Source: Tetrahymena thermophila SB210
Lineage: Eukaryota > Ciliophora > Oligohymenophorea > Hymenostomatida > Tetrahymenidae
Length of the DNA stretch: 64,000 bases
Assembly (NCBI RefSeq): GCF_000189635.1
Contig: NW_002476334.1
Location: 310,001 to 374,000 of the forward strand
Direction of reading: 5' to 3'
Shown: positions 47,854 through 64,000 of the stretch, one piece after another
How positions within the stretch are numbered: position 1 is the stretch's first letter
How the letters are laid out: each line of letters begins with the position of its first letter
The notes under the pieces: generated by a model
The model's input: the letters and a program-made list of their open reading frames with translations, nothing else
Database searches by the model: none
Told to the model about the DNA's origin: nothing
Program-made: the position numbers and the translations under genes

Positions 47854-50052
47854 TGCTTAGCTTATTCAATAAGATCCTTCTGCTATTATTTTAACTCCTA
47901 TTGTAGAATTTTTGTAAATTTTTATATTTAAATTAATGATTTACTTGCATTTGTTAGTTTTTCTACTTTATCAATGAATTGTATTTCAAAAGAATTGCTT
48001 CACATTCACCACACTGAGAATTAAAATATAAAAATCAAGATTCTTCAAAATAATAATCAAATTACTTGCTATTTAGAATAATTCATAAAAATTTAATTTT
48101 TATTTAATTTAAAAAAATTTACCAAATACTCATGAGACTTTAGATAATAATTAAAAAATATTAGATATTCTATAATCATAAAATACTTACAAATAACTAT
48201 TTATTTTTAGTGCCAAAAATTTAAAATAAAATCTTCAGTATTAATCAAAGTTACTCTCCACTTATAATTAAAAAAATAGATTACAAAAATAATTATTATT
48301 AATTTTTTAAACCCAATAAACTATTTTTATTTTCAATGATTTTTTTTTTTTAAATTAAGGAATATAATAAGAAAACTAAAAAGAAATATCTACCCACTAT
48401 TTGATTGTTCATAATAATAAATGTATATTAATCTGAATCATTTATGAATATCAAAATAAACTTACTCCCTATTTTTAAAATATTTTTTGTTAAAAAAAAA
48501 TACTTCCTTTTTAAAAAAATCTTACTCCCTATTTTAAGTTTCATATAAAAGATTATTGAGAGTATTATTTTGAATAAATTTATTTACCCTCTATTTTAAA
48601 AATAAAATTTTATTAATTCAATATAAAATATAATTTATTTTTGTGTATACATGACCATGCTAAAATGCTTCGTAAGCAGCTTAGTCTTTGAGATCCTATT
48701 TATAAAGTCAATAAAGATTAAATCTAAATATTTATTATACTAAAACTTACTTGTATTTCTATTCTTAAAATATCTAAATTGCTTTTTATTGCTTTAAGGT
48801 TCTTTTAAAAATAAATTCAAAATAACATATAACTAAATTATATTTACGTTTTCTCTTAATTCATCTCTTTCTCTCTTTAGCTAGCTTATATCCGATATCC
48901 TTTTCTATATGATATCTTAATAATTATCATAAACTTTATTAAATTATTTTTATTATTCTATCTTACTATTTTTTTTCACTCTGTTCTTTACTAAACTTTT
49001 TGCTTACCTTATCTACTTAAATTGGTTTGTGGCCTCCAAATAATCACTTTCACCTCCTGAAAGTGATGACTAAGGCTTAGAATAATTTCTTCTATTTTCT
49101 TTTGATTAAGTTGGAGGTCTTGATCCAATTTAAACGCTTGTATTGCTTTCACTTTTATCTAAATAACCTTATTTTAAATTATCTACAATACTAAAAAGTC
49201 TACATTCATTAATATGTTCCTCAAATTTTTCTACTTTTATAAAAATTTCACAAAAAGGACAGCACTTCTTATCCGTGTTTGCCTTGTACACTATTTTCCC
49301 CTCTTATAAATCTACCTAATTTTCTTAATGATAGCTTGCACTACTCCGCCTTTTATCTATACTTTAAATCAATTTTTATTTTTTGAGCTCAAGAAGATCC
49401 AAAGGTTTTTCTAATTTATTAAAGGAATTATTCTAAAAGATATCTTTAAGGCTTTCCCTGACATTTTATGGGGTGTAATTGGAGTACCTATCACAAAAAT
49501 AATTAATTGCCTTATTTATTTAGTAGGAATGCAAATTTACCCTCTAAAACCTTTGCAGTCCTTATCATAGTGTTTAAAGAATAATTCTCTAGGCATTGTT
49601 TCTTTGCATTAGTTGCAAACAATCATTTAAGTTCTTGGAGTTTATTTCAACTAATCATTTGCTTAGTAGCTTCTTGTTGAACCACCGCTTACTGGTAAAT
49701 TTTATAATTGATCTAAAATACTAATTGGTCTGGGCTTTCTCTTTGAAAGTTATGACAAAAGGTTTTCTTTATTTACATTTTGCTCCTCTTTTTAATTTTA
49801 TGGAGTATGTCTATCTATTGAACTATATCGAGTATTTCTTTTTAGGCTTTCATTATTTCTCTAATTGTCATATGAGCTATTCAATTTAGATTTTTAGTTA
49901 TCAGAACTAAGATCAATATGAAATGATGATTTGTTATTTTTTACAGGCTTTGCATATAAATTGAACTTTTTCATACTTTTATTTGCAAAATTATTGGATG
50001 CAGTTTTGATAAAGACTTTTTCATCTAACTATGAGACTAATCCTTTATTCAT
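47751..50052 (-). CDS. zinc-finger / coiled-coil hypothetical protein
   Basis: Seven exons (50052-49541, 49487-49008, 48965-48848, 48801-48751, 48695-48651, 48013-47945, 47897-47751) give about 473 aa, in register. Start ATG is at 50052-50050. Residues 1-150 are basic, Ser/Asn/Gln-rich and presumably disordered. Then MIVCNQCKETMPRELFFKHY followed by DKDC, and CCPFCEIFIKVEKFEEHINE followed by C, form two C2HC-type zinc knuckles about 130 residues apart. The C-terminal third (RISDISQLKRERDELREN, ELKQQQKDLIEQAKQQEIED) is coiled coil, ending in SPSQKKQESFK. C2HC pairs with coiled coils occur in centrosomal and ciliary proteins, but I cannot name the family. The intron at 48650-48014 is long (637 bp) and may hide micro-exons. 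The last exon overlaps a tandem duplication. Confidence 0.72.
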
Positions 50053-50545
50053 AAATACTTTTGAATGGTTACTTATTTGATAAAATTAATGAAAATTGTA
50101 AAAATATAAAAAATAATCAATTAGATATGCTTTATATAAAGTAATTTACTAATTGCTATTAAAGTTTTCTTATGATTCTAATTATAAATCATCTTAATTT
50201 ACCATTAAAACTTAACGAATATAATAATTACCATTCATATTCACTTCAAACAAAGTTAGTTTTTTAAAAAACTTTTAAAACGTTTTAAATTATTTATTTG
50301 AAAAATTTACAATAAACCTAAATAAATATTTTTTAAATTCGATAAAATTTCATATTTTTTTTTTAATTTTAAAATTTTGCTTAAGTTTTAAAAAGATTGA
50401 TTTTAATTTTAGATAAAAATTAGTTAAAAAATTAATTTTTGTTGAACGCAATATATAAATATAGAAATAAATTAGTATAATAGTAAATTTAATTATGAGA
50501 TAAGTATTATGGTATTTTAAATTGAAAGAGGATTTTGCTTATTTT
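50053..50545. other. intergenic, no gene seen
   Basis: A 0.5-kb AT-rich spacer between two minus-strand genes. Nothing recognised. Confidence 0.6.
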
Positions 50546-53302
50546 TCAGATTGATAATAATTTTTAGATATTGTCTGAATTTAAGTTTATAGGAATCAGT
50601 TGATCTTTTTAGAAGAGTTATTAGTATTTCATTATTATATATTCAATTTAAAATGACTTTTCTGATTTGATTTAGTGAACAGTTTCATCTTTCATAGTTA
50701 TTATTGTATTTATTTCATCTTTATGAGAAATTTGCTTAATGTCTTTGTAATAGTATTATATGTAAGTCTATTAATCTGAATTTAATATAATAAATGAAGT
50801 AGGTTTAAATATAAGACTACTTTATTAATAATGTTGTTTAGCTGAGTTAAAGCAATATTCTGCAGTAATTTCAGTTGCATCATAGTAAATAGAAGTTTTG
50901 CCAATATTGGTAAAATTATATTTTGATTAGAGCTAGTTGTAATTTTTATTTATCAGTTCATAAATATTTTTAATCATTGGTATTATTTAATCTTTTTGAT
51001 GCTCTGAGAAAAAAATAGGAAGTTCTTAATCAATATTTGAAGATCTTAGAACATTTTAAAGAAAAGCATAAGCTCTAGCTAATTTCTCAATATCTGAAAA
51101 GTATTGAGGGTATATAGTGTAAATATCGTAAAAAATTTAGCTAAAGTTAAGCTTTATTGATATTTAATCATTTTCAGTCATCTAAAATGGAACAATAGAT
51201 TTAATCATTAAAAATTAAAAGTAATCATCATTCCCTTACATTTTTTTCTTGTTTCTGATGTGTTCCCACTCTAACATAATGTCCCAAACATACTCATAGT
51301 CTAGAGCTATTTTCCTTGTTAGGTTATTTTCAAATTTTTCAACATCATATATTATAAATTAGTCTTCATTAAATCTTGTTGAATTTATTTTTAGTTATTA
51401 CAAAATTTTAGTTTTTAGATCAAAGATGGTTTCATATTATTCGATGTGAACTAAAACAATGCTTCCTATTTAATTAAGATAAAACAAAAATTAAAATCTA
51501 TAAATTCTGTATTATTTATTTTTAGTATTTTAAATTTCATAAATAATAAATAGTATTTGATTGAAAATCTAAGAGTGTTTGTTTGCTTGTGGAAAAAACT
51601 AATTTAGTAATGTAAATTGTGTTTCGTTCTAATTAATTTCTAAATGTAAAAGTGATATCTAAAATCCTGAAATAAAATAGAAAGCTTATTAGATCTTTTG
51701 AAAGACTTGGGGTTTTCGAAATTATTAATCACAGTGATGTATTACTAATTTTGATTAAATTATTTAGAACTACATTACTTACAGTTTAATTTAATTTGAA
51801 TATTCCTTTTTTTTGGCTATAAACGATAATTAAATTCGAAAAGGTTTGAGTTGTGATAGATAGATAGAATCCCTTATTGTAAATAAAAGATAATTGAAAA
51901 TTTCTCAATTTTAGGTGGTCATGAATAAATTATTTTTGGTTTTAATTTTCATTAATACGAATCTTACTCAATTTAAATGATTATATTTTAGAAATAAATT
52001 AGTATCTCTCTTCTATATAGAAAATTTAAAAAAATGTTTACCAGTTGAAAAGAAGATTGGAAACATGAGTTATTTGTTGTTAATTATCAAATCTAGGTAA
52101 GGTTTAGATAATGTACTTATTGAGACTGTTTTTTTACATTTGTATTTATCATCCTAGAATCTTCTCAATACCGCGGGAATTACTGTATTTATTTACTTCA
52201 AAACCGGGGTAATGTCTTACCAGGTTTTCTATTTCGGAAATTCAATTAGAAGCACATTTAATAAGCATAATAGGATTTTATCATTTGGAGAGTAGCAAAA
52301 GAGAAGACATTTGAGATAATTGAGAAGATCAAATAATTGTACTTACTGTAAATTGTTTCTCATCTACTTTATCACTTATGTGTACATTTCATTAATAAAG
52401 CTCTCTTTTTTGTTCTCTCCTAGTTAAAGAAGATATTAGATAACTATTTTTTTCATGTTTTTTTCTTTTTCAATTTTCTCTTTATATTTTTGATCGTTCT
52501 CTTAATATTTATCATAAGCATAACAATCAACATCTTTTTTTAAGCACATCTGATGAAACAAAACAGAAAAATGACGGACTGCCTACTTGCTTTCTTATTC
52601 GTTGTTTAAATCAATTAAGCTAGTTGTTGATATTGAGGAATCTTAAAAAGTCATTATATCTTTAAAGCTTTTTTTAAAACCTAAAAGAGTTTTGCGCTTA
52701 TTTAGCTAAAAAATATTTGAGTAAACATATTCTGGAGTGTGTGCCTTGATTAGAGCAAACATTTCTTATGAAATTCCCTAAGAAGTTTCAAATTTTAAAT
52801 CTAAACTATCTTAATCAATAGGTATATTATTAGGTCTTTCCTTTAAATCTAAAATTGTTATTATTTAAGTTGCATTTTCTTTGTATAATTAAACATCTTC
52901 TAGTCTATATTCATAGGTTTGATCAGCGCTTTGGCTCTCAAAAATGTTATAAAACTCATCATTTGGTGCAAAAATACAGTTTTAGGTAAAATTACTCTTC
53001 CTGGTTTAATTAGTTTATTGTTTTTTGTGTAAATGAGGACATTTATTAACATCATATTCAATATCAGATAAGATCTATTTAACATTTTTTTCTAAGGGTT
53101 TATCAATCGAATTTATAGATTCACAATAAAGTTAAGTTTCTTAACTATTTAGTGAATTTATCACACATGAATTATCATTTATAAATTCGAAAATATTTTA
53201 TTTTTGTTAAAAATTTGACTGACTTTCAAAGCAGACTGAAGAAAAACTTGAGAAGTCTCCTTAAGAGTTCAAATTTTTTACAGGAGTGTAAATTTTGCTC
53301 AT
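50546..53302 (-). CDS. MyTH4-FERM protein lacking a myosin motor
   Basis: Two exons (53302-52042, 51465-50546) split by a 576-bp intron give 726 aa. Start ATG at 53302-53300 opens MSKIYTPVKNLNSQGDFSSF, a disordered Ser/Gln-rich head. From about residue 195 a MyTH4 domain follows; its best segment is VIQYLLQLGENKKESFINE and then MYTQVIKQMRNN, equal to the family's DEIYxQxxKQ region. The FERM F1 lobe spans the intron (SIVLVHIEQYETIFDLKTK), then F2 (YPQYFSDIEKLARAYAFLQN) and an F3-like end. MyTH4-FERM pairs bind microtubules, membrane receptors or actin regulators and normally sit at the tail of myosins VII, X and XV. Here no motor or IQ motif precedes it, and a separate ATG and a 1.2-kb spacer divide it from the neighbouring myosin. 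Probably a headless relative; partner unknown. Confidence 0.82.
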
Positions 53303-54544
53303 TGTATGATATTTTTGTTGTAAAATCTAATTATTAATTAATTAATTTGATCATTTAATCTTTAGATTTATTACCATGTATTCTATCAGAAAAATATTGA
53401 TATTCAAAAAATTTATAAATTGATTTATGTTATTTGTTATTATCTTGCAAAAGTTATTCGTGAAATTTAGATTTTTTTTTTCTCTTTTTTAAACCATCAA
53501 AATTGGAAGCTAAACACTTCCATAAAAATTACAATTCTTTTATTGTTCATTTATTGGGTTTTGGATTTGTGTTATAAAAATAATCTTTTATGTTAATCTT
53601 TTTTATTGCTTAAATAGAGTTTGATATAAAAATCATATCAATTTTTATTTAAATCATAAATTAACTAAAATAAAAAAATCTTACTAAATATTTAAAAGAA
53701 TTCATAAGCAAAGTTGTTCAAAAAAGACTATAAAGTTTAAATAAATAGATATTAATTTTTAGATTTTTTTATTAAAATCTACTATTATAAAATCATTATT
53801 ATTTTCTATAAAAAGGATTGATTATCTATCTTGATATCGTTTCATAAATTATATTTAGAAATTTTAGTTATCAATAAAAGATTTAGCATTTTATATGACA
53901 ATTTTTATGTAAATCTTTTAAAAAAAGGTAAAAAAATTAATTAATAATAATTATAATTAAATCTTATTGAGGTAAATAATATTTTGTAATCATTTTTTAA
54001 ATTAATCGCATATACAAAAATAAATTACCTTGTTTTAATAAAGATTTGCATTTTTGATTAGCTATTGGCAAAAATAAATTTTAAAATCTTAGAAAAATTC
54101 TATTTATATTATTTATTTAAATATCTTAGATAGTATTTTTTTTAAAAATTAAGGTAATATTAGCTTAACTAATTAATAAATATATAGTTATAAATCTATT
54201 TTCAGAAAATTAATTCTTTCAGATAAGTGAAGACAATAAATTTTGAATATAATGAGTTTCATTTTGTTTGTAGACAAAAGTAATTTAACATTTCTCAATA
54301 TTTATTTAAGAAAAACCATTTTTTTAATATAATCTAATTAATGATAATGGATTAAATACATTCTAATTTGTTTTTTTAAAAATAGTAAATATTAATAAAA
54401 AGTCTACAAAAATAGATATTTAGGATAAATAAATAAATTGTAAATTCAATAGAAAATTAAGGTTAGGTTGATTTATTTATTTATTTATTGATTGATAAAT
54501 AGCAAACATTATTCCAGAAAAATATTGATTCATTCATTTATTAA
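53303..54544. other. intergenic between the headless MyTH4-FERM gene and the myosin
   Basis: A 1.2-kb AT-rich spacer with an ATTT repeat near 54472-54490. I looked for remnants of a motor domain (P-loop, switch motifs) on the minus strand and found none. Confidence 0.6.
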
Positions 54545-57500
54545 TCAATTAAATTTTTTTTATTAACTAGAAGAGAATAGTTGATTGCTATATAATTTTT
54601 AATATTGTTTAAGAGATTCTGACGTTTTTATATTTTGTGGTATTGAAGCACTTTAAATTGATCTTTAGTTTGTATTAATAGAAGAGTATATGCTTTTCAT
54701 AGATTGATAATATTGTTCGTCTTATTGTTTTACCAACCCTTTGACTTGATTAAAATAATAAACAACTGTTAAAACATACTCAGTATTGATTATATGAGAT
54801 TTATTGTCTTTAGTATTCAGTTTTATAAATTTGTCTTGGACTCCCCAGCTGATTAGCTAGCTGTACTTGTATTGCATTACTAGATGATTATTGTTTGCAG
54901 TTTCGTAGAATGACATCTAATAGGAGTTTAAAACCATCAAATAATTGAGAGGGTCGTTAGTTTGTTTTTGCTCATCACAGTATTTTATAGGTATTTTTAA
55001 TCCCAAAAGATTGACATTATCTTTGGCTAATTATATGTATTCAAATTTTGATTAGAGCCTAGTCATTTTATTTTTTATATTTTTTTCGTATTCCTCCTAA
55101 ATAAGCTGAAAAATGCTCCTTGACTCTTCTTCACTAAAACTTAAAGGTAGAATACTTGTTGGATCTTCAATGTTGGAAATATCTAATATATTAAGTAAAT
55201 GTGAAAGCATCTGTATGTTAGTTTTTTTATCATCATAAACGAGATTTGAAATGTAAGTATCAAAATATATTTAGCTTTAGAGTAAGCTAATACCAACTTC
55301 GTCATTTGGATAAACTGTGTAAACAAAAATAGGTTTAAACATAAATTAGAAAGTCTTCTTTTAATTTTAATTTTTTTTCGTTTCAAAGGCACTTTGATTT
55401 CTATAAGTATCTTATAAATGAATAACATCCCATACTCCTTCTAATGGAAAAAGCATTCTTTCAAATACTTAATTTTCTTTTGTTTGTATTTCGAAGAATT
55501 CAAATAATTCAGGGATCAGACGACGGTGGTTGATATTCAATTATTCCATGACTTTTTATTTCAAATTGTTAAAATTATCATATGGATCTACATTCACAAG
55601 AAAACTGGTCCCTAAATAAAGTTTAAAAAGCAATAAATATTAAAGCAATAATTTAAGTTTTCTTTTCTTTAAATTAAATTAAATTAAATTTGAAAAAGAG
55701 AAATATTCAATTCTCTGAAAAACTCTTATTTTTTTCAATTATTGTTTTTTTAATCGAATAAAAATGAGTTTTTTAAACTTTATTTTTACAATTTTTAGTG
55801 ATGAAATTTGTAAAATGATATTAAAAATTTTTAAACCGAAACAAAAAAATTGATGAAAATTGCTTTAAAAAAATAAAATTAAAATTACCAATTGGATTTT
55901 TTTCAATAATTGTTTTTTCAATTTTTTCAATCGAATAAAAATGAGTTTTTTAAACTTTATTTTTCCAAATTTCATCTAAAATTTGTAAAATGATATTTAA
56001 AATTTTTAAACCGAAACAAAAAAATTAATGAAAATTGCTTTAAAAAAATAAAATTAAAATTACCATTTGAAAGAGTAATTGGAACTTTTATTTGATATTA
56101 AAATATCAAAGCATTAATTTTCATTTCTGTGAGAACATGCTTATTGTAAATATTCTCTCTTTCTTTTAAATAAGTTATAGAGCGAAACAAAGTAGGAATC
56201 ACATATTCTATGTATTTTAATATAGTGCTATGTTAGTGCCAAAATTTCATTAAATTAAAAATTAAGAAATTTATCATAGTCATAGTATACTCTTCATCAG
56301 TTCTGAAGCAATAACAAAATACTACTAAGTAGTGAAGAAGACGGAGAGTGTATAAATCGTTTTTATTACCATTTAACTATTTTAAAATTTAAGTCAAGAC
56401 CTCATTTTTAAATTCTTAAGACCTGTTTTAAGAGTACTTCAAAAGTTTTTAAATTCTAGACTCCTATCCATCATTATACGAACTTTATGTTTAGTATTAT
56501 TATGTCACCGAGTATTTAATAGTATCTGTTTCTTTGATAAATAATAATAATATTTCAAAGTGTGTAAGGGCATGAGCTATATCAGATGAAGGAAGCTTTA
56601 TCAAGCTACCTCCTTTTATGCATGTCTTTTTAAATGTTAAAATTTCTTCTGTTGTTTTCTTACCAAAAAATTTGCTTCGCTCATTTAATCTTTTAGAGTA
56701 AAATTCAATATAATTATATTTCTTTATTTAAATCATATCTTCCTCATCTATTTGTTAAATTTGATAATCCTTGTCAAGTGCATATTAGACTTGCTTCATT
56801 TACTAAATTATTTTATCGTCTATTTCTTAGGAATTCAACAATTTAAGCAAAAGACTTTCTGATTCTATTTCTTCTTAGTCAGGAGGATTCACATAAATTT
56901 CATTTGTATGTTTCTCTGGGATGTGTAATAGACTTAAGTCTCCAGTCTAAAAATCAAAAGCATTCACATTTTAAGAATTTTATTATTTTTCACTTTTTAA
57001 GCTATAAGTGTTAACCTTACTTTATGATTACTCAGTTTAAATTTCATTAACAGCTATAGTATCATATAACAAAGATGCATTAGTTTCATTTATGCTAGTA
57101 TCTTATCTTTGTAAAAATTAATTTGAAACACATGTTGATTCGCTAACCTTTTATTCTTCTTAACTTTGCTCTAATATTTATTTATTATTCTCTATTTAGG
57201 CTTCATTTTTTTCTTTTAATTCTTTCATTTTATCACTATATTCTTTAAGAATTTAAAATGTAGTCTTTGTAAAAGATGCTTTTACTATTTTTAACGTTAA
57301 GGTAATAAGATTTTTTACTTAAGTAATTTTAGCTTTTTACTTAATTAGTTAAAAGCAATGATTATATATATTAAAAATCTTCTGTGCAAAGAAAATATTG
57401 TTTAATTTTTTAATTCCTTCTAATTTTTTCTAAAACCTTTTATGGAATCTAAGGTACCTAACATAAATCTGAATTCTTACTACTTAAGCAGTCCTTTTAC

Positions 57501-60190
57501 GCTTTATTTCTGCATACTTTATCTAATCAATAGCACTTTCAAATTCCTATTTCATGTAGATTTTATTATTACCAAATAGAATAAGAGAGTCACTGTAGTT
57601 TGGATACATCTTTGAAACTAAAGCTTTACATTCATCTTTAAAATTTTTAATTTAATCTATTGCTTTTTTTTCTAATTACTCATCACAAACTCTATACTCT
57701 TTAAAAAAAGTTAAATAATCCCTTCTTTAGGGATAAGTGCTTTTCCTTACTTCTATTGAGTTTATAACACCCAGATACTCTATTTATTGCAATACATAAC
57801 CTTCCAAGAAATAGTCACTTTTTTTAACTTCATTTGTCTATTTTTATAAATTAACTATAATAAATCAAATGTTATTTTTAATTGTGAATTTACCTTAACA
57901 CATCTAACAAAATGAACATCTGAAGAATTTAATTCTTTCATCAACTCTACCATTTAATTACTAAATTTCTCTCCTAAAAATCTTGCTCTATTTTATTATG
58001 TTTATTCTTCATTACCAAAGATAGAAGGTATGTATTTGTTGCTACTTTTACTAATTACATCTTTGAGGGTTTAACTTACTTCATCGATATTCTTTGCTAT
58101 AAATCCTTCAATTTTGTAGCTAACAGGATTCTATGTGTGATTTATCAAAAATGTGCCATTATCCATTTTAGGAAATTGAATGACTTATATTTATTGATTT
58201 TTAAAGTCATTTTTAAGAGACTATAAATATTTTGAATCGTCTTTGGATTATGTTTTGCAACAATCGTTAAGCAGCTTGTAACTTCTATTTAAAGTTTGAA
58301 TGATCATTGAATTATCCTAATAGCTATTCCAAAAAAAATACATTAAATATAAAAAACTTAAAAAGGAATTTACCATAAATTTGAAAGGAAATTCTCTAAA
58401 CCGTCTTCTTTAAAAATTTATTCTTCATTCTTAAAAACATATTAAATGTATAGTTGCTAAAGATTCTCATTTGTATAATTAATGCAAAGCTATTCAAAAG
58501 AATTTTCTTAAAAGTTTTCAAAACCAAAAATATCAAGTAATCCAATCATATTGTTATTAGAGGTGTTTGTTGTGTTATAGTTTACCTGATTATTTTTTAT
58601 AATTTGGTTTAATTTATCAACTAGCCAGTTGAATAAGTTATCATAAAGTGCTTTACTCAGAGTATTTTTTGCATGATGACACTATACTGCATCAGCTGGT
58701 TTATGATATACTTCATTCACTGCTACAATTGTTTTATAAAGAAGTGCTTTCTTAAGATCATCTAAATTAATACCTAGTAAACTACTGACTATCTGTAGCA
58801 CATTTTCATTTACCACTGTGCATGGTGATGAACCCTCAGAAAATGATTAATTTGAAAACTAAATGTTTCCTAAATGTAAAATAGCAGATAGTATTTTAAA
58901 AATAGTATTTTGCAAGTCTTCTTCGAATTTCATAACTTTGAAGGAATTAATAATTCCTTGAAATAATTAAGTGTCATCAATAGTTTCTACAGAGTAGCAG
59001 TCACTCTAACTTAAGTATTAAAACTCAGATGGTTTTTTATTTAAAAGATGAAGTTTTTCCAATAATTAATTATCTTTTGACTCCAATAAGTGATAAAAGA
59101 TATGATAATTTCTCTCTCCTTAGCTTAGATGTATCACTCTACTTTTTTCAAGTAGATATTTAGTGATTGTAGCTCCATTTATTTTCTTTTTAGCTATTTC
59201 AATTTATACATATTTACCAAAACGACTTGAGTTATCATTTCTCACTGTTTTTGCATTTCCAAATGCTTCGAGTACAGGGTTGCAGGATAATATTTTTTCT
59301 TCGATGCTTTCATTTGAGTTATCATGAGTACTAATTTAAGTTAAAAATCTCATCGAATATCTTGCATTCTCTGTCTTACCTTTTAAAATATTAAAAGAAC
59401 ATCAATATTGGTAAGATTTATACTTAATTAAGTAAATAAGTAAGTAATAGTTTTTAGATTTATTTAAGTATTTTTTGGTATTTAATTTCCTTAATAAATC
59501 ATTTTATGAAATTAATATATTTCTAAATAAATCAAAACAAAATTTACCTGCACCACTTTCACCGCTAATAACTATTGCCTACTTTTTATTGAACTTAATT
59601 AAATTTTTATAAGCCATTGCAGAAATAGAGTATATGTGAGGCTATTGCATTTCAAGATCAAACAAATCAAAGTTTTTATTTAAATTTTCTTTTATCATAT
59701 CAATCGTTTGATTAGAAAATAATTCTTTCAAACTTTTGTAAGGATTTAAAACTATTAAAGTAGGGCCGATATAAGTAAAGATATTGTCTTATGCATATCT
59801 CTATTTTAAGTTAGCAATCAATTCTGCCTCATTAAGAACACTCATTTTTACCATGTCGTAAAATGATGTTTGGCTTTGTTCTTCTCTCTAAAATAAATTT
59901 TTAACATTTGTCTCAATCTATTCAGCATTTTAGCCATTTTCCTATTCAATGCTTATGTTAACTATTTATTGTCCGCCTACATTCTTTACTTAATCTGATA
60001 CTATAATTGCTTTTCTAAATATGTATTGCTCTTCTCTATTATTATTTTTCTTATACCAGCATCTAACGTTGCTCATAACCCAAGTGCTATCTGCCTCTTT
60101 GGCTTTTACTGGGTTATTGTTAGCGTTTTTATTTCCTCCCTGCTATTATTAATTTGTAGAAGAATTAGGAAGCTTATTTTAGCTGCTCAT
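54545..60190 (-). CDS. myosin heavy chain with MyTH4-FERM tail (complete)
   Basis: Five exons (60190-59548, 59379-58374, 58323-57894, 57837-56064, 55611-54545) give 1639 aa, in register. The motor (about 60-760) has P-loop [11 protein letters not shown] split by intron 1, switch [12 protein letters not shown] (about 259-269), switch [12 protein letters not shown] (about 492-501) and [11 protein letters not shown] before the reactive-thiol/converter region ([18 protein letters not shown]). The neck is short and basic with one IQ-like stretch ([17 protein letters not shown]). Next come a coiled-coil/Q-rich linker, MyTH4 (about 1080-1270; NEVLTQILKQLNGN) and FERM (about 1285-1600; [20 protein letters not shown] starts F1, [13 protein letters not shown] lies in F3). 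Ciliate MyTH4-FERM myosins are a distinct expansion (general knowledge); roles in phagosome traffic or nuclear elongation are reported for some. Intron 4 (452 bp) contains a tandem repeat. Confidence 0.95.
55735..56065. repeat. tandem duplication inside myosin intron 4, including the splice donor
   Basis: Two copies about 177 bp apart (about 55738-55891 and 55903-56065) share AATCGAATAAAAATGAG, TTTTTAAACCGAAACAAAAA and AAAATTAAAATTACCA. The right copy ends at the real splice donor (minus-strand GTAATTTT at 56063); the left copy ends in an identical donor-like sequence. They are nearly identical, so the duplication is recent. Confidence 0.9.
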
Positions 60191-60798
60191 AAAATAAAGT
60201 AAAAACCTTTAGATTTTTTAATTGAAATCTATCTATCTTTCTAACTAACTATCTATTTATTATCAATATTTGTGAATCAAAATTAAGTATTATAAATTAA
60301 ATAGCAAATTTTGCGTGCAAAAATTAGTAAACTTGATATAAATAATATTTAACATTAAAATACCATACTAAAATATATACTTTATTAACATCCAAGAGTT
60401 TCCTTATTATTAATCAGAGAATTTTTCTAATAAAAAAAATTTGCTGATTAATTTTGAGAATAACAATTTCAATAAATAATTTTATAATTAATAGATATAT
60501 TAAAATAGTTGTTTTCTCATGACTCTGATTTAATTATAAAATATCTGTAGAAATAATTTGACTTTTAATATTTGCAATATTTTTTTTTTACAAAATCTTA
60601 ATTAAAACCTTCTTGTTTTAAAATAAATTAAAAAAATTTTATTTTATTTTTATATTTTAAATTTAAAAAATTTGAATTTTATATTTTATTTACTTAAATC
60701 AATGATAAATTAGAGGTACAAAAAAACATAAAAATATATTAAATCTAGTACTTGCTTTTTTTATCATTACAAATATAAAAATTTATTTATTAATTTTT
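60191..60798. other. intergenic between two myosin genes
   Basis: A 0.6-kb AT-rich spacer between the 5' end of the complete myosin and the 3' end of the next one. Nothing recognised. Confidence 0.6.
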
Positions 60799-63700
60799 TC
60801 ATTATTAATTTTCTTGCTCATTGTTATTTTAATAGTATTCCAAAAATTACTAAATTAATTGATTGTTTGCAAGTCTATTCTCTTCATTTTCATCATCAAT
60901 GATATTATTATAAGCCTATTACATTAAATTTTTGGATTCTTAGAAATAGAATAATATTTAAGCAGAGTATTTTGATTGTATTAAGTGTTTGATTCCTCCT
61001 TTGGTCTAAATAAGGATGTGATCTTAAAGATCATATTTGCTTCTTCCCCACCTTTCTATGTCTTAGTATGAGTATTCTATTATTATCTTTTTGCTTTCAG
61101 ATGTAACTATAAAAAAGTAGGTTGGTTTTAGTACTAATATCACTTCTACATAGCTGCAATTAAATTCGTTTTCAGACTCGGTTTTCAATTTACATTAGTA
61201 ATCCTAAATTTCTATTTCAGGAGGAATATACTTCACTTCGATTTAAAGACCTAAATAGTATTTATTATCTTTTGCAATCATCAAGTACATATATTTTGCT
61301 TGGAGGACATTGAAAAGACCTTTAATTCTTTCGTACTCCTTATTGATAGGTCCAATCACTTCTTGTCTAGATTCTTGTTGCATAATTAATGGAAGAGAGT
61401 TCATAGTTTCTTGGTCTGAGTGGCAATTATTTATAATCTTAAGTAAAGCACTTAATTATATAATTTTTTCTACTTCATCTATGATTTATTTTCCCACGTA
61501 GATATCGAAAAATACCTAGCTGAATTAAAGGCTTATACCTGCTATGTCGTCTGGATAGAGAGTAAAAGGAAATAAAACTTTAATCATAAATATTGATATA
61601 ATATACTGTTCAGATTCTTTCTACTACATTTATTAATTATAATTTCCTTTTTCTTTCATGGATTAAACCTTTTAAATTTGTTTTTGATTTTATAAATATA
61701 AAATATCCCAAATATACTGATCAGGCAAGAGCATTTTTTCAATTGTTTTATTTTCCTCTATAAATTGCAGCTCAAAAAGTTGCAAGTAATTCGGTTTTAT
61801 TCTGTCAGTATTTATCTATACTTGCTTCATGATCTTTTACTTTAATTACTCCACTGTGTCCCAAGAATCTGCACAGACTTAAATGCTTATACCTATTTTT
61901 TATTAATTTTAAGTTTTGATAAAATTTTTTTTATTTATTTTTGATTACCTGTACAAAAAGCAATAGGAAGACAAAGTTTATTCTAAAGAATTAATGCATT
62001 AATTTCGTACTAAGGGATGAGCAATGTAAATAGTTATTTCCTTGGATTCTCTTAATCTATTTTTCTAATAATTGATGGAATTATATAAAGTATGTAGTTT
62101 TTAATTTTCATGTTATCTTTCCATTAGTTTTCATATAAATAAAAAATGAGGAAATGCATTAAAGCCTTTAAAAAATCATCGTCAGGAGTAAAACAATACA
62201 GGAAGACCTTCAAATATTAAAGAATTAAATAACTTTCAGATTCTTTCTTATTTTTATTTAACTACTTTATGATTTGAGTTGTTACTTCGTTATAAAATTA
62301 AGTCGATTTTTTCAGGCTGACTAAATTCAAATCTTAAATGTGGATAGATACTAATTTAGAATCGTCATATTTTTCTAATTTCATTAGTTCTAGCAAGAAT
62401 TAAAAGTGTGAAATGGCTGCCTTTTTCTCTTCATCGTTTACTTATATTAGAGTACCTTTGCTCAGACATTTTTTTTAATAAGAAAGTATTTCTTTTTCAT
62501 CCTTTTTAACCCCAAAATAATTTTTTCTTATATTTAAATGTTGTTTATAGAAGGCTATCATATCAAACTTTTTAATCTCATGGTATTAATCTACTTCAAT
62601 ATCTTCCAGCTTAAAGTAGCAATCATCTGCTTTTTCATCAATTTCTTCTATTGTTTCAGGAGAGTTAGAAGATAACAGTTTAGCCAATTTCTCTGCATTC
62701 TAATTTTCTTCCTCTGTTGGTCTTGGAATGAAAATTGTGTTATCACCAAATTAGTCTGGATCTTAAAAGGCAAACTAATTCCAGTCTTAGATATTTTTAG
62801 TATTATAATTGTTTATGTCAACGTTCTAATTAGTAACATAGAGATTTTATTAATTATCTTGGTAGTAGAATTTGTTAGAATCTATAACTGCTCCATTTGG
62901 TTCAACTTAAGAAGTAAAATAGGCTGAATTGCTCATGTTTGTGGAAAAGTTTTTATCATATTGATCGCTTAATATAATATTGTGGTTCATTGAATTCGAT
63001 TACAAATTATTGCTATTATTTTAAGTCTAGGAAAGTCTTTTTGAGCTTTAATCAGTTGAGTTTGTAAGATTTTATTAAGATTATTACTTTAATTTTATGT
63101 CTTCTTATTATCTATAAATAGATTTTTTCCTTTCTATTTCCTCTACCTATTTTATTATTTTTTTCATAAATAAATTAATTTAAAAAAAAATAATATTTTT
63201 TTACAGCTTTAACTTTGAGATAAAACTCTTTTATAGCATAAAAAGAGATTGCTTTATTAACTTTAAAGAAATAATCTATTTTCTTATAGAATTTTATAAA
63301 AGTTTATTCCTTAGCTTTAGATTTTATCTTCTCAAAACCTTTATACAAATGGTTTAACAAAACTTATTTAAATATTGATCTTATAATTTGAATACTCTTT
63401 CTCTGTTTTTTTTCTAACTGAAGCCTTCTGAATATTTTTTGGATGGATATAGTAGCAGCTGTTTGTTTTTTTTTAATGCAATTTTATTTAAGTTTCTCAA
63501 GTTAAATTTCAAATTCCTGCTTGAGATATATCCTAGACTATCCATATAAAACTTATTTGTCAGAAACGCTTTTAAAGCACTCAATTAAAATTTCTTAACA
63601 TAATTTTTAATAATCTGTTCTTTTTGAAAATTCTAAAACATCTGAGCAAACCCTATATTAAATGAAGAAGGCTTGATAAGTTTTTCTGACTGGATATGTA

Positions 63701-64000
63701 TGTTTTCTGACTTCTATAGACTCCAAAACTCCTAAGTATCTTATTTACTGCATCACATAGCCTTGAATAAGATGATCTTTTTTCTTTTCTTCATTTGGCT
63801 AACAAAAAAATAATAAATGATCAATAATTTTAATCTTTTAAATAAATTTTTTTACTTTTATGCATCTAACAAAGTGTACATCTGAAGAATTAAGCTCACC
63901 CATAAGTTCAGTCATTTATTGTTTAAATTTTGAGCACAAATACTTATTTTTAGCGTTATTAGAAACAAATTTTCCTTATTAACTATTCATACTTTTGTCT
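60799..64000 (-). CDS. second MyTH4-FERM myosin, tail and converter only (runs off right edge)
   Basis: The gene enters from the right edge; exons in view are 64000-63856, 63798-63205, 63146-61949 and 61892-60799. TGA ends at 60799. The first residues ([14 protein letters not shown]) are the end of the motor's lower domain, followed by GYVMQQIRYLGVLESIEVRK (converter) and IQ-like segments (AATISIQKIFRRLQLEKKQR). A Q/N/S-rich linker leads to MyTH4 (KKCLSKGTLIQVNDEEKK ... YNEVTTQIIKQLNKNKK) and FERM (CADSWDTVEQLKQKIMKQ; ERWGRSKYDLQDHILIQTK in F3). The ATPase half lies outside the window. Residue by residue it parallels the neighbouring complete myosin, with introns at equivalent places after VRCIK and at the MyTH4/FERM junction, so the two are tandem paralogues. 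One intron, in the linker (63147-63204), is absent from the neighbour. Confidence 0.93.

Follow-up and report, generated by a model that had tools for sequence, protein, structure and literature searches.

A motorless MyTH4-FERM gene beside two MyTH4-FERM myosins of Tetrahymena thermophila as a probable descendant of a local myosin tail

Myosins whose tail consists of a MyTH4 and a FERM domain have been published for Tetrahymena thermophila as class XIV (Sebe-Pedros 2014, PMC3942036), and this lineage is believed to have gained its MyTH4-FERM myosins separately from animals and amoebae (PMC3942036). In mammals, headless Myo10 is a motorless MyTH4-FERM tail present alongside the full-length motor, which it may damp; it is a transcript of the motor's own gene and reaches the membrane through PH domains (PMC6345916). 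Partners of the myosin X MyTH4-FERM tail include microtubules and the cytoplasmic P3 domain of DCC, and animals also possess motorless MyTH4-FERM proteins such as MAX-1/PLEKHH1, for which a scaffold role has been proposed; MAX-1 has PH domains (PMC6080411). Here we describe a gene, which we call HL, that encodes a MyTH4-FERM tail with no motor and lies beside two myosins, MyoA and MyoB, in a window of 64,000 nucleotides (bases 310001-374000 of the 397,044 bp contig C200) of Tetrahymena thermophila. Among the papers listed in literature searches on ciliate myosins and on headless or motorless tails, none was seen to describe a ciliate gene of the motorless MyTH4-FERM kind. MyTH4-FERM myosins and animal motorless MyTH4-FERM proteins are already known, and what would be new is HL as a descendant of a local tail.

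Compared with the class XIV myosins, a name that we apply to MyoA and MyoB following PMC3942036 for Tetrahymena thermophila, HL has the same tail as MyoA, MyoB and six more genes that combine motor, MyTH4 and FERM, but it lacks the motor, and a neck cannot be recognised in it. Our best explanation, to which we assign a probability of roughly 0.6, is that HL is an intact gene derived from a local tail and that its product would be a motorless MyTH4-FERM adaptor. Genes were read with the ciliate code (table 6), in which TAA and TAG encode glutamine. Under table 11 the region from 48 to 64 kb holds zero open frames of 100 amino acids (aa), and long frames open if both codons are read as glutamine. 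The gene finder was written for the ciliate code, all myosins found by the head profile were modelled, and the key parts were then run again after training exclusively on sequence of other contigs. The models place MyoA, MyoB and the motorless HL in this order, head to tail on the minus strand, with coding parts separated by 608 bp between MyoA and MyoB and by 1242 bp between MyoB and HL. MyoA and MyoB each give a Myosin_head profile match, and the stretch at 50.5-54.5 kb gives none. The original prediction of two MyTH4-FERM myosins and one motorless gene in a row on the minus strand is confirmed. In the Pfam scan the MyoA tail gives MyTH4 above the cut-off (expectation value, E, 3.9e-7), and that of MyoB gives MyTH4 (E 3.8e-5) and RA_2 (E 2.9e-4), both below it.

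HL carries a three-lobe FERM domain (F1, F2 and F3) after its MyTH4 region, and both parts align with all eight motor tails. The original prediction had given it MyTH4 and an F1 interrupted by an intron; a MyTH4 region and F1 are present and the intron does lie in the start of F1, but this understated the gene, which has F2 and F3 as well. Profiles were built from eight ciliate tails, HL included and the C60 tail excluded, and an alignment of the same composition holds seven MyTH4 columns that are invariant in all eight rows. These profiles reach a Dictyostelium myosin MyTH4 (E 2e-11), a talin FERM (E 1e-16) and a myosin X FERM (E 1e-11). In the FERM search the top-ranking matches are polyubiquitin chains, owing to the ubiquitin-like F1. 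Likeness to myosin VII and X tails and to the talin head is thus recovered by the ciliate tail profiles, and for HL alone only via its FERM model. When the predicted model of HL exon 2 was searched with Foldseek, the best FERM structure was found at E 2.8e-7 among 149 matches at E up to 0.001, and 49 of the 50 matches listed were FERM proteins, with kindlin and talin counted as such. Myosin_head is absent from HL in the Pfam scan, and the genome scan is likewise blank at HL. For PH, Pfam returned no match in HL at a maximum E-value of 10, a setting at which weak matches can still be dropped by filters.

HL has a single intron, which splits a glycine codon in phase 1 where F1 begins with its first strand; in MyoA and in MyoB the MyTH4/FERM-join intron falls on the corresponding residue of the alignment and agrees in phase. 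It is absent from all six other MyTH4-FERM tails as modelled, so that only three of nine tails have it, all of them members of the array. An unbroken frame spans the site in C398, C437 and C60, and C112 has a different intron, in phase 2, about 28 residues upstream. MyoA and MyoB have introns in common after VRC(I/V)K (phase 0), at the MyTH4/FERM join (phase 1) and between LSNL and YQDN (phase 2). Each also has a phase 1 intron of 168 bp at the P-loop (59380-59547 and 65590-65757, the latter beyond the window end), which is found in none of the 11 other myosin models; the MyoA copy has no in-frame TGA. The intron after VRC(I/V)K also occurs in C398, a myosin on another contig, and is therefore not specific to the array. 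Common positions after VRC(V/I)K and at the MyTH4/FERM join had been the argument for a tandem duplication of the two myosins; they are real, two further common introns were found, and the duplication itself is supported by the intron seen only in the array among the nine tails and by the trees described below. As a separate observation, most of the MyoB join intron (55745-56069) consists of a 175 bp unit in 1.8 copies that match at 92%, and its MyoA counterpart is 56 bp long.

Tail trees were computed from the nine tails of this genome, those of the eight MyTH4-FERM myosins and of HL. HL, MyoA and MyoB form a clade with both domains combined (501 columns; Shimodaira-Hasegawa-like approximate likelihood ratio test, SH-aLRT, and bootstrap 100/100), with MyTH4 alone (98.7/100) and with FERM alone (97.1/98), and a mixture model returns it with bootstrap/SH-aLRT of 100/99.7. 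The approximately unbiased (AU) test gives p 0.004 against leaving HL out of the MyoA/MyoB clade and p 0.003 against placing it with C398, which is the next branch outside the three; the motor tree gives the same order of MyoA, MyoB and C398. Branching inside the clade is weak. MyoA pairs with MyoB at 88.3/81 and 77/86, HL joins MyoA weakly in the tree of MyTH4 only (62.3/63), and AU p-values are 0.26 for HL with MyoA and 0.059 for HL with MyoB. Searches of the genome agree in kind: the sole non-self matches of the HL MyTH4 region are MyoB and MyoA, and the HL FERM finds MyoA (E 4.8e-15), MyoB (E 3.5e-14) and one weak place at E 0.045. The HL tail is 25-31% identical to those of MyoA and MyoB, and its DNA has zero matches to either gene at E 1e-3, which indicates that the duplication is old. 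The array-private intron, the tree position and the AU rejection together point to a local myosin tail as the source of HL, and this descent, read from sequence comparison, we regard as very probable. The origin suggested in the original prediction is supported by the same intron and by the MyTH4, FERM and combined trees, all of which group HL with its neighbours. Since HL is nested among genes that bear motors, loss of a motor or copying of a tail alone is simpler than repeated gain.

What such a tail would do is argued by analogy. The product of HL would be a soluble, motorless adaptor, whose MyTH4 would bind a cytoskeletal partner and whose FERM would bind a membrane or cargo peptide, and the free tail could link cytoskeleton and membrane without moving. 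It may serve as anchor or scaffold of a structure to which the motors next to it also travel, and competition with MyoA and MyoB over cargo would follow to the degree that their partners still overlap. An adaptor or scaffold role stands, as we see it, slightly below an even chance, and true competition with the neighbouring motors appears unlikely.

The same analogy allows a stronger proposal, in which HL is a natural competitor, a headless myosin that takes the cargo of MyoA and MyoB and damps them as headless Myo10 may damp its motor. HL is of the same tail lineage and locus as the two myosins, as a competitor would be; but at the identity given above shared partners cannot be assumed, and overlap is unsure. 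HL also differs from headless Myo10 in being a separate gene model with its own start, a diverged tail and no PH match, whereas headless Myo10 gets to the membrane through its PH domains, independently of MyTH4-FERM (PMC6345916). The myosin neck is unrecognisable in the first 170 residues of HL, so that neck-mediated pairing with the motors is unlikely, and competition or independent scaffolding is the more likely mode. We accordingly hold the competitor to be improbable, and we likewise doubt the bolder reading in which local duplication produced a gene dedicated to a headless myosin, HL, whose task is to regulate the adjacent class XIV MyTH4-FERM motors. We favour an adaptor with partly separate partners.

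Several observations weigh against an intact MyTH4-FERM gene. Every domain of HL falls below its Pfam cut-off: MyTH4 at residues 289-351 has E 1.8e-4 and 22.2 bits against a cut-off of 27, and RA_2, which corresponds to F1, lies just below its own at residues 410-506 (E 7.8e-6). The HL sequence alone finds no MyTH4-FERM structure. The predicted FERM model is weak, with a mean predicted local distance difference test (pLDDT) score of 53.5 and template modelling (TM) scores of 0.14-0.49 for the matches listed, and is best over F3; that of MyTH4, with a mean pLDDT of 42.3, is too poor to use and yields no structure match at E 0.001. The HL branch is longer than that of MyoA or MyoB. Finally, the codon score of HL, 0.089, is the lowest among 14 genes, the others having 0.150-0.205, in a scoring whose coding model came from motor exons and whose non-coding model came partly from 53401-54500, upstream of HL itself. 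When training was independent and drew solely on the remaining 11 myosins with their introns, HL is again lowest, at 0.171, with MyoB at 0.230, MyoA at 0.235 and the 11 training genes at 0.250-0.301. On the domains, the evidence at the level of the family is stronger than that from the single sequence: the profiles of ciliate tails reach known MyTH4 and FERM structures.

The low codon score and the longer branch would suit a decaying fragment, a truncated myosin copy lacking its 5' part that is open by chance or was recently freed from selection. The coding sequence, however, contains zero in-frame TGA, whereas its 2000 mononucleotide shuffles contain 11.9 on average and never fewer than 3, and its two other frames hold 17 and 42. 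The frame has stayed unbroken although the protein is about 70% diverged from its nearest relatives. HL also matches 22 of the 38 tail columns conserved in the eight motor tails (58%), so its conserved core is preserved as well as that of the motor tails, which score from 26/60 (43%, C398) to 26/43 (60%, C112) when each is compared with the other seven. The absence of in-frame TGA and the retained core residues disfavour decay, which we consider highly unlikely; from these sequence features we read HL as a functional gene, perhaps weakly expressed or fast-changing.

HL could also be part of a larger gene, either through joint transcription with MyoB or through splicing to the next gene downstream (47.7-50.1 kb). 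On the upstream side, MyoB has its own stop, a TGA at 54545, and the 1242 bp that follow are mostly non-coding-like: with independent training, nine of ten windows of the codon scan fall below zero and one reaches 0.11. A tblastn search with all 14 models found no motor relic there, the best match besides the MyoB C-terminus being at E 1.2, and residues 1-170 of HL have no match better than E 1.3 among 13 myosins. The start and the intron of HL are unchanged when the gene finder is retrained without any C200 sequence. A junction of HL with an upstream motor exon, which the original prediction had kept in view, is unsupported. On the downstream side, the unconstrained gene finder did fuse HL with the next gene through a 586 bp gap, and did so with both training sets. 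We rejected this join, as it uses an unusual donor (GTCATT) and bypasses the stop codon TGA at 50546 together with the final helix of F3, which aligns with MyoA and MyoB; when the finder is restricted to the HL stretch the gene ends at 50546. A larger gene therefore seems to us very improbable. The downstream gene itself (about 48800-50100, minus strand) shows, by eye, two zinc-finger-like C..C..H..C stretches.

That HL belongs to an old motorless family like MAX-1/PLEKHH, proteins that do exist in animals (PMC6080411), and lies beside the myosins by chance, is barely credible given the intron private to the array, the placement of HL inside the MyoA/MyoB clade with C398 next, the AU rejection of leaving it out and the lack of a PH match in Pfam.

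In the 101 Mb and 445 contigs of the genome searched, the Myosin_head profile detects 13 motor genes, MyoA and MyoB included, spread over 12 contigs; a MyTH4-FERM tail is part of eight of these as modelled. In the remaining five (C443, C99, C13, C173 and C122) no MyTH4-FERM was seen by eye, and four look RCC1-like. To look for a second motorless MyTH4-FERM gene, six tail sequences belonging to five genes (HL MyTH4, HL FERM, C154, C398, C437 and C60) and a MyTH4 profile were searched exon by exon. None was found, all matches but one lying in HL and the eight MyTH4-FERM myosins, and the count of such genes is a lower bound; the profile finds six of the nine known tails and misses those of MyoB, HL and C112. 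The weak HL FERM match at E 0.045 (C60:887740) contains two in-frame TGA and was taken as chance. The FERM_M profile has one place in the genome, in C60, below its cut-off, and RA_2 also matches C169 and C278, outside the myosins. C169 (C169:609500-612300) holds a FERM gene with RA_2 above the cut-off (E 4.9e-8) and FERM_M below it (E 3e-4); its FERM is preceded by a stretch that resembles RhoGEF and PX domains by eye. No MyTH4 was seen by eye in the 2.8 kb of C169 that were read, of which only the FERM piece was scanned with profiles. The match in C278 (C278:484983-485177) is weak (E 0.003) and below the cut-off. A GGGGTT repeat is present at the one end examined of each of contigs C200 and C99, and these contig ends and the code usage fit a Tetrahymena macronucleus. 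In C200, read over C200:392601-397044, the contig closes with a GGGGTT telomere about 21 kb past the MyoA start, which makes the array subterminal.

Table 1. Coordinates of the three array genes and their parts, in positions of the window unless another contig position is given.
Feature	Position	Strand	Description
HL gene	50546-53302	-	726 aa, two exons, no motor
HL exon 2	50546..51465	-	remaining FERM F1, F2, F3, TGA stop
HL intron	51466..52041	-	576 bp, phase 1, GTAAAC...AAATAG
HL exon 1	52042..53302	-	ATG, unmatched N-terminal ~165 aa, MyTH4 region, first strand of FERM F1
MyoB stop to HL start	53303..54544	.	1242 bp, mostly non-coding-like composition, no motor relic
MyoB	54545..60190	-	myosin motor, neck, MyTH4, FERM; 1639 aa, 4 introns
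MyoB intron at MyTH4/FERM join	55612..56063	-	452 bp, phase 1
MyoA whole gene	60799 to 66295 (= C200:376295)	-	motor, neck, MyTH4, FERM; 1642 aa, 5 introns
MyoA part inside window	60799..64000	-	remaining 2.3 kb beyond window end
MyoA intron at MyTH4/FERM join	61893..61948	-	56 bp, phase 1

If HL is what we propose, it would be a clear case of the tail of a motor protein turned into a stand-alone gene. Were it to act on its neighbours, it would give ciliates a parallel of headless Myo10, reached by gene duplication and not by a shorter transcript of the motor gene. Tetrahymena is genetically tractable, which would make the choice between antagonism and scaffolding by a free tail directly testable.

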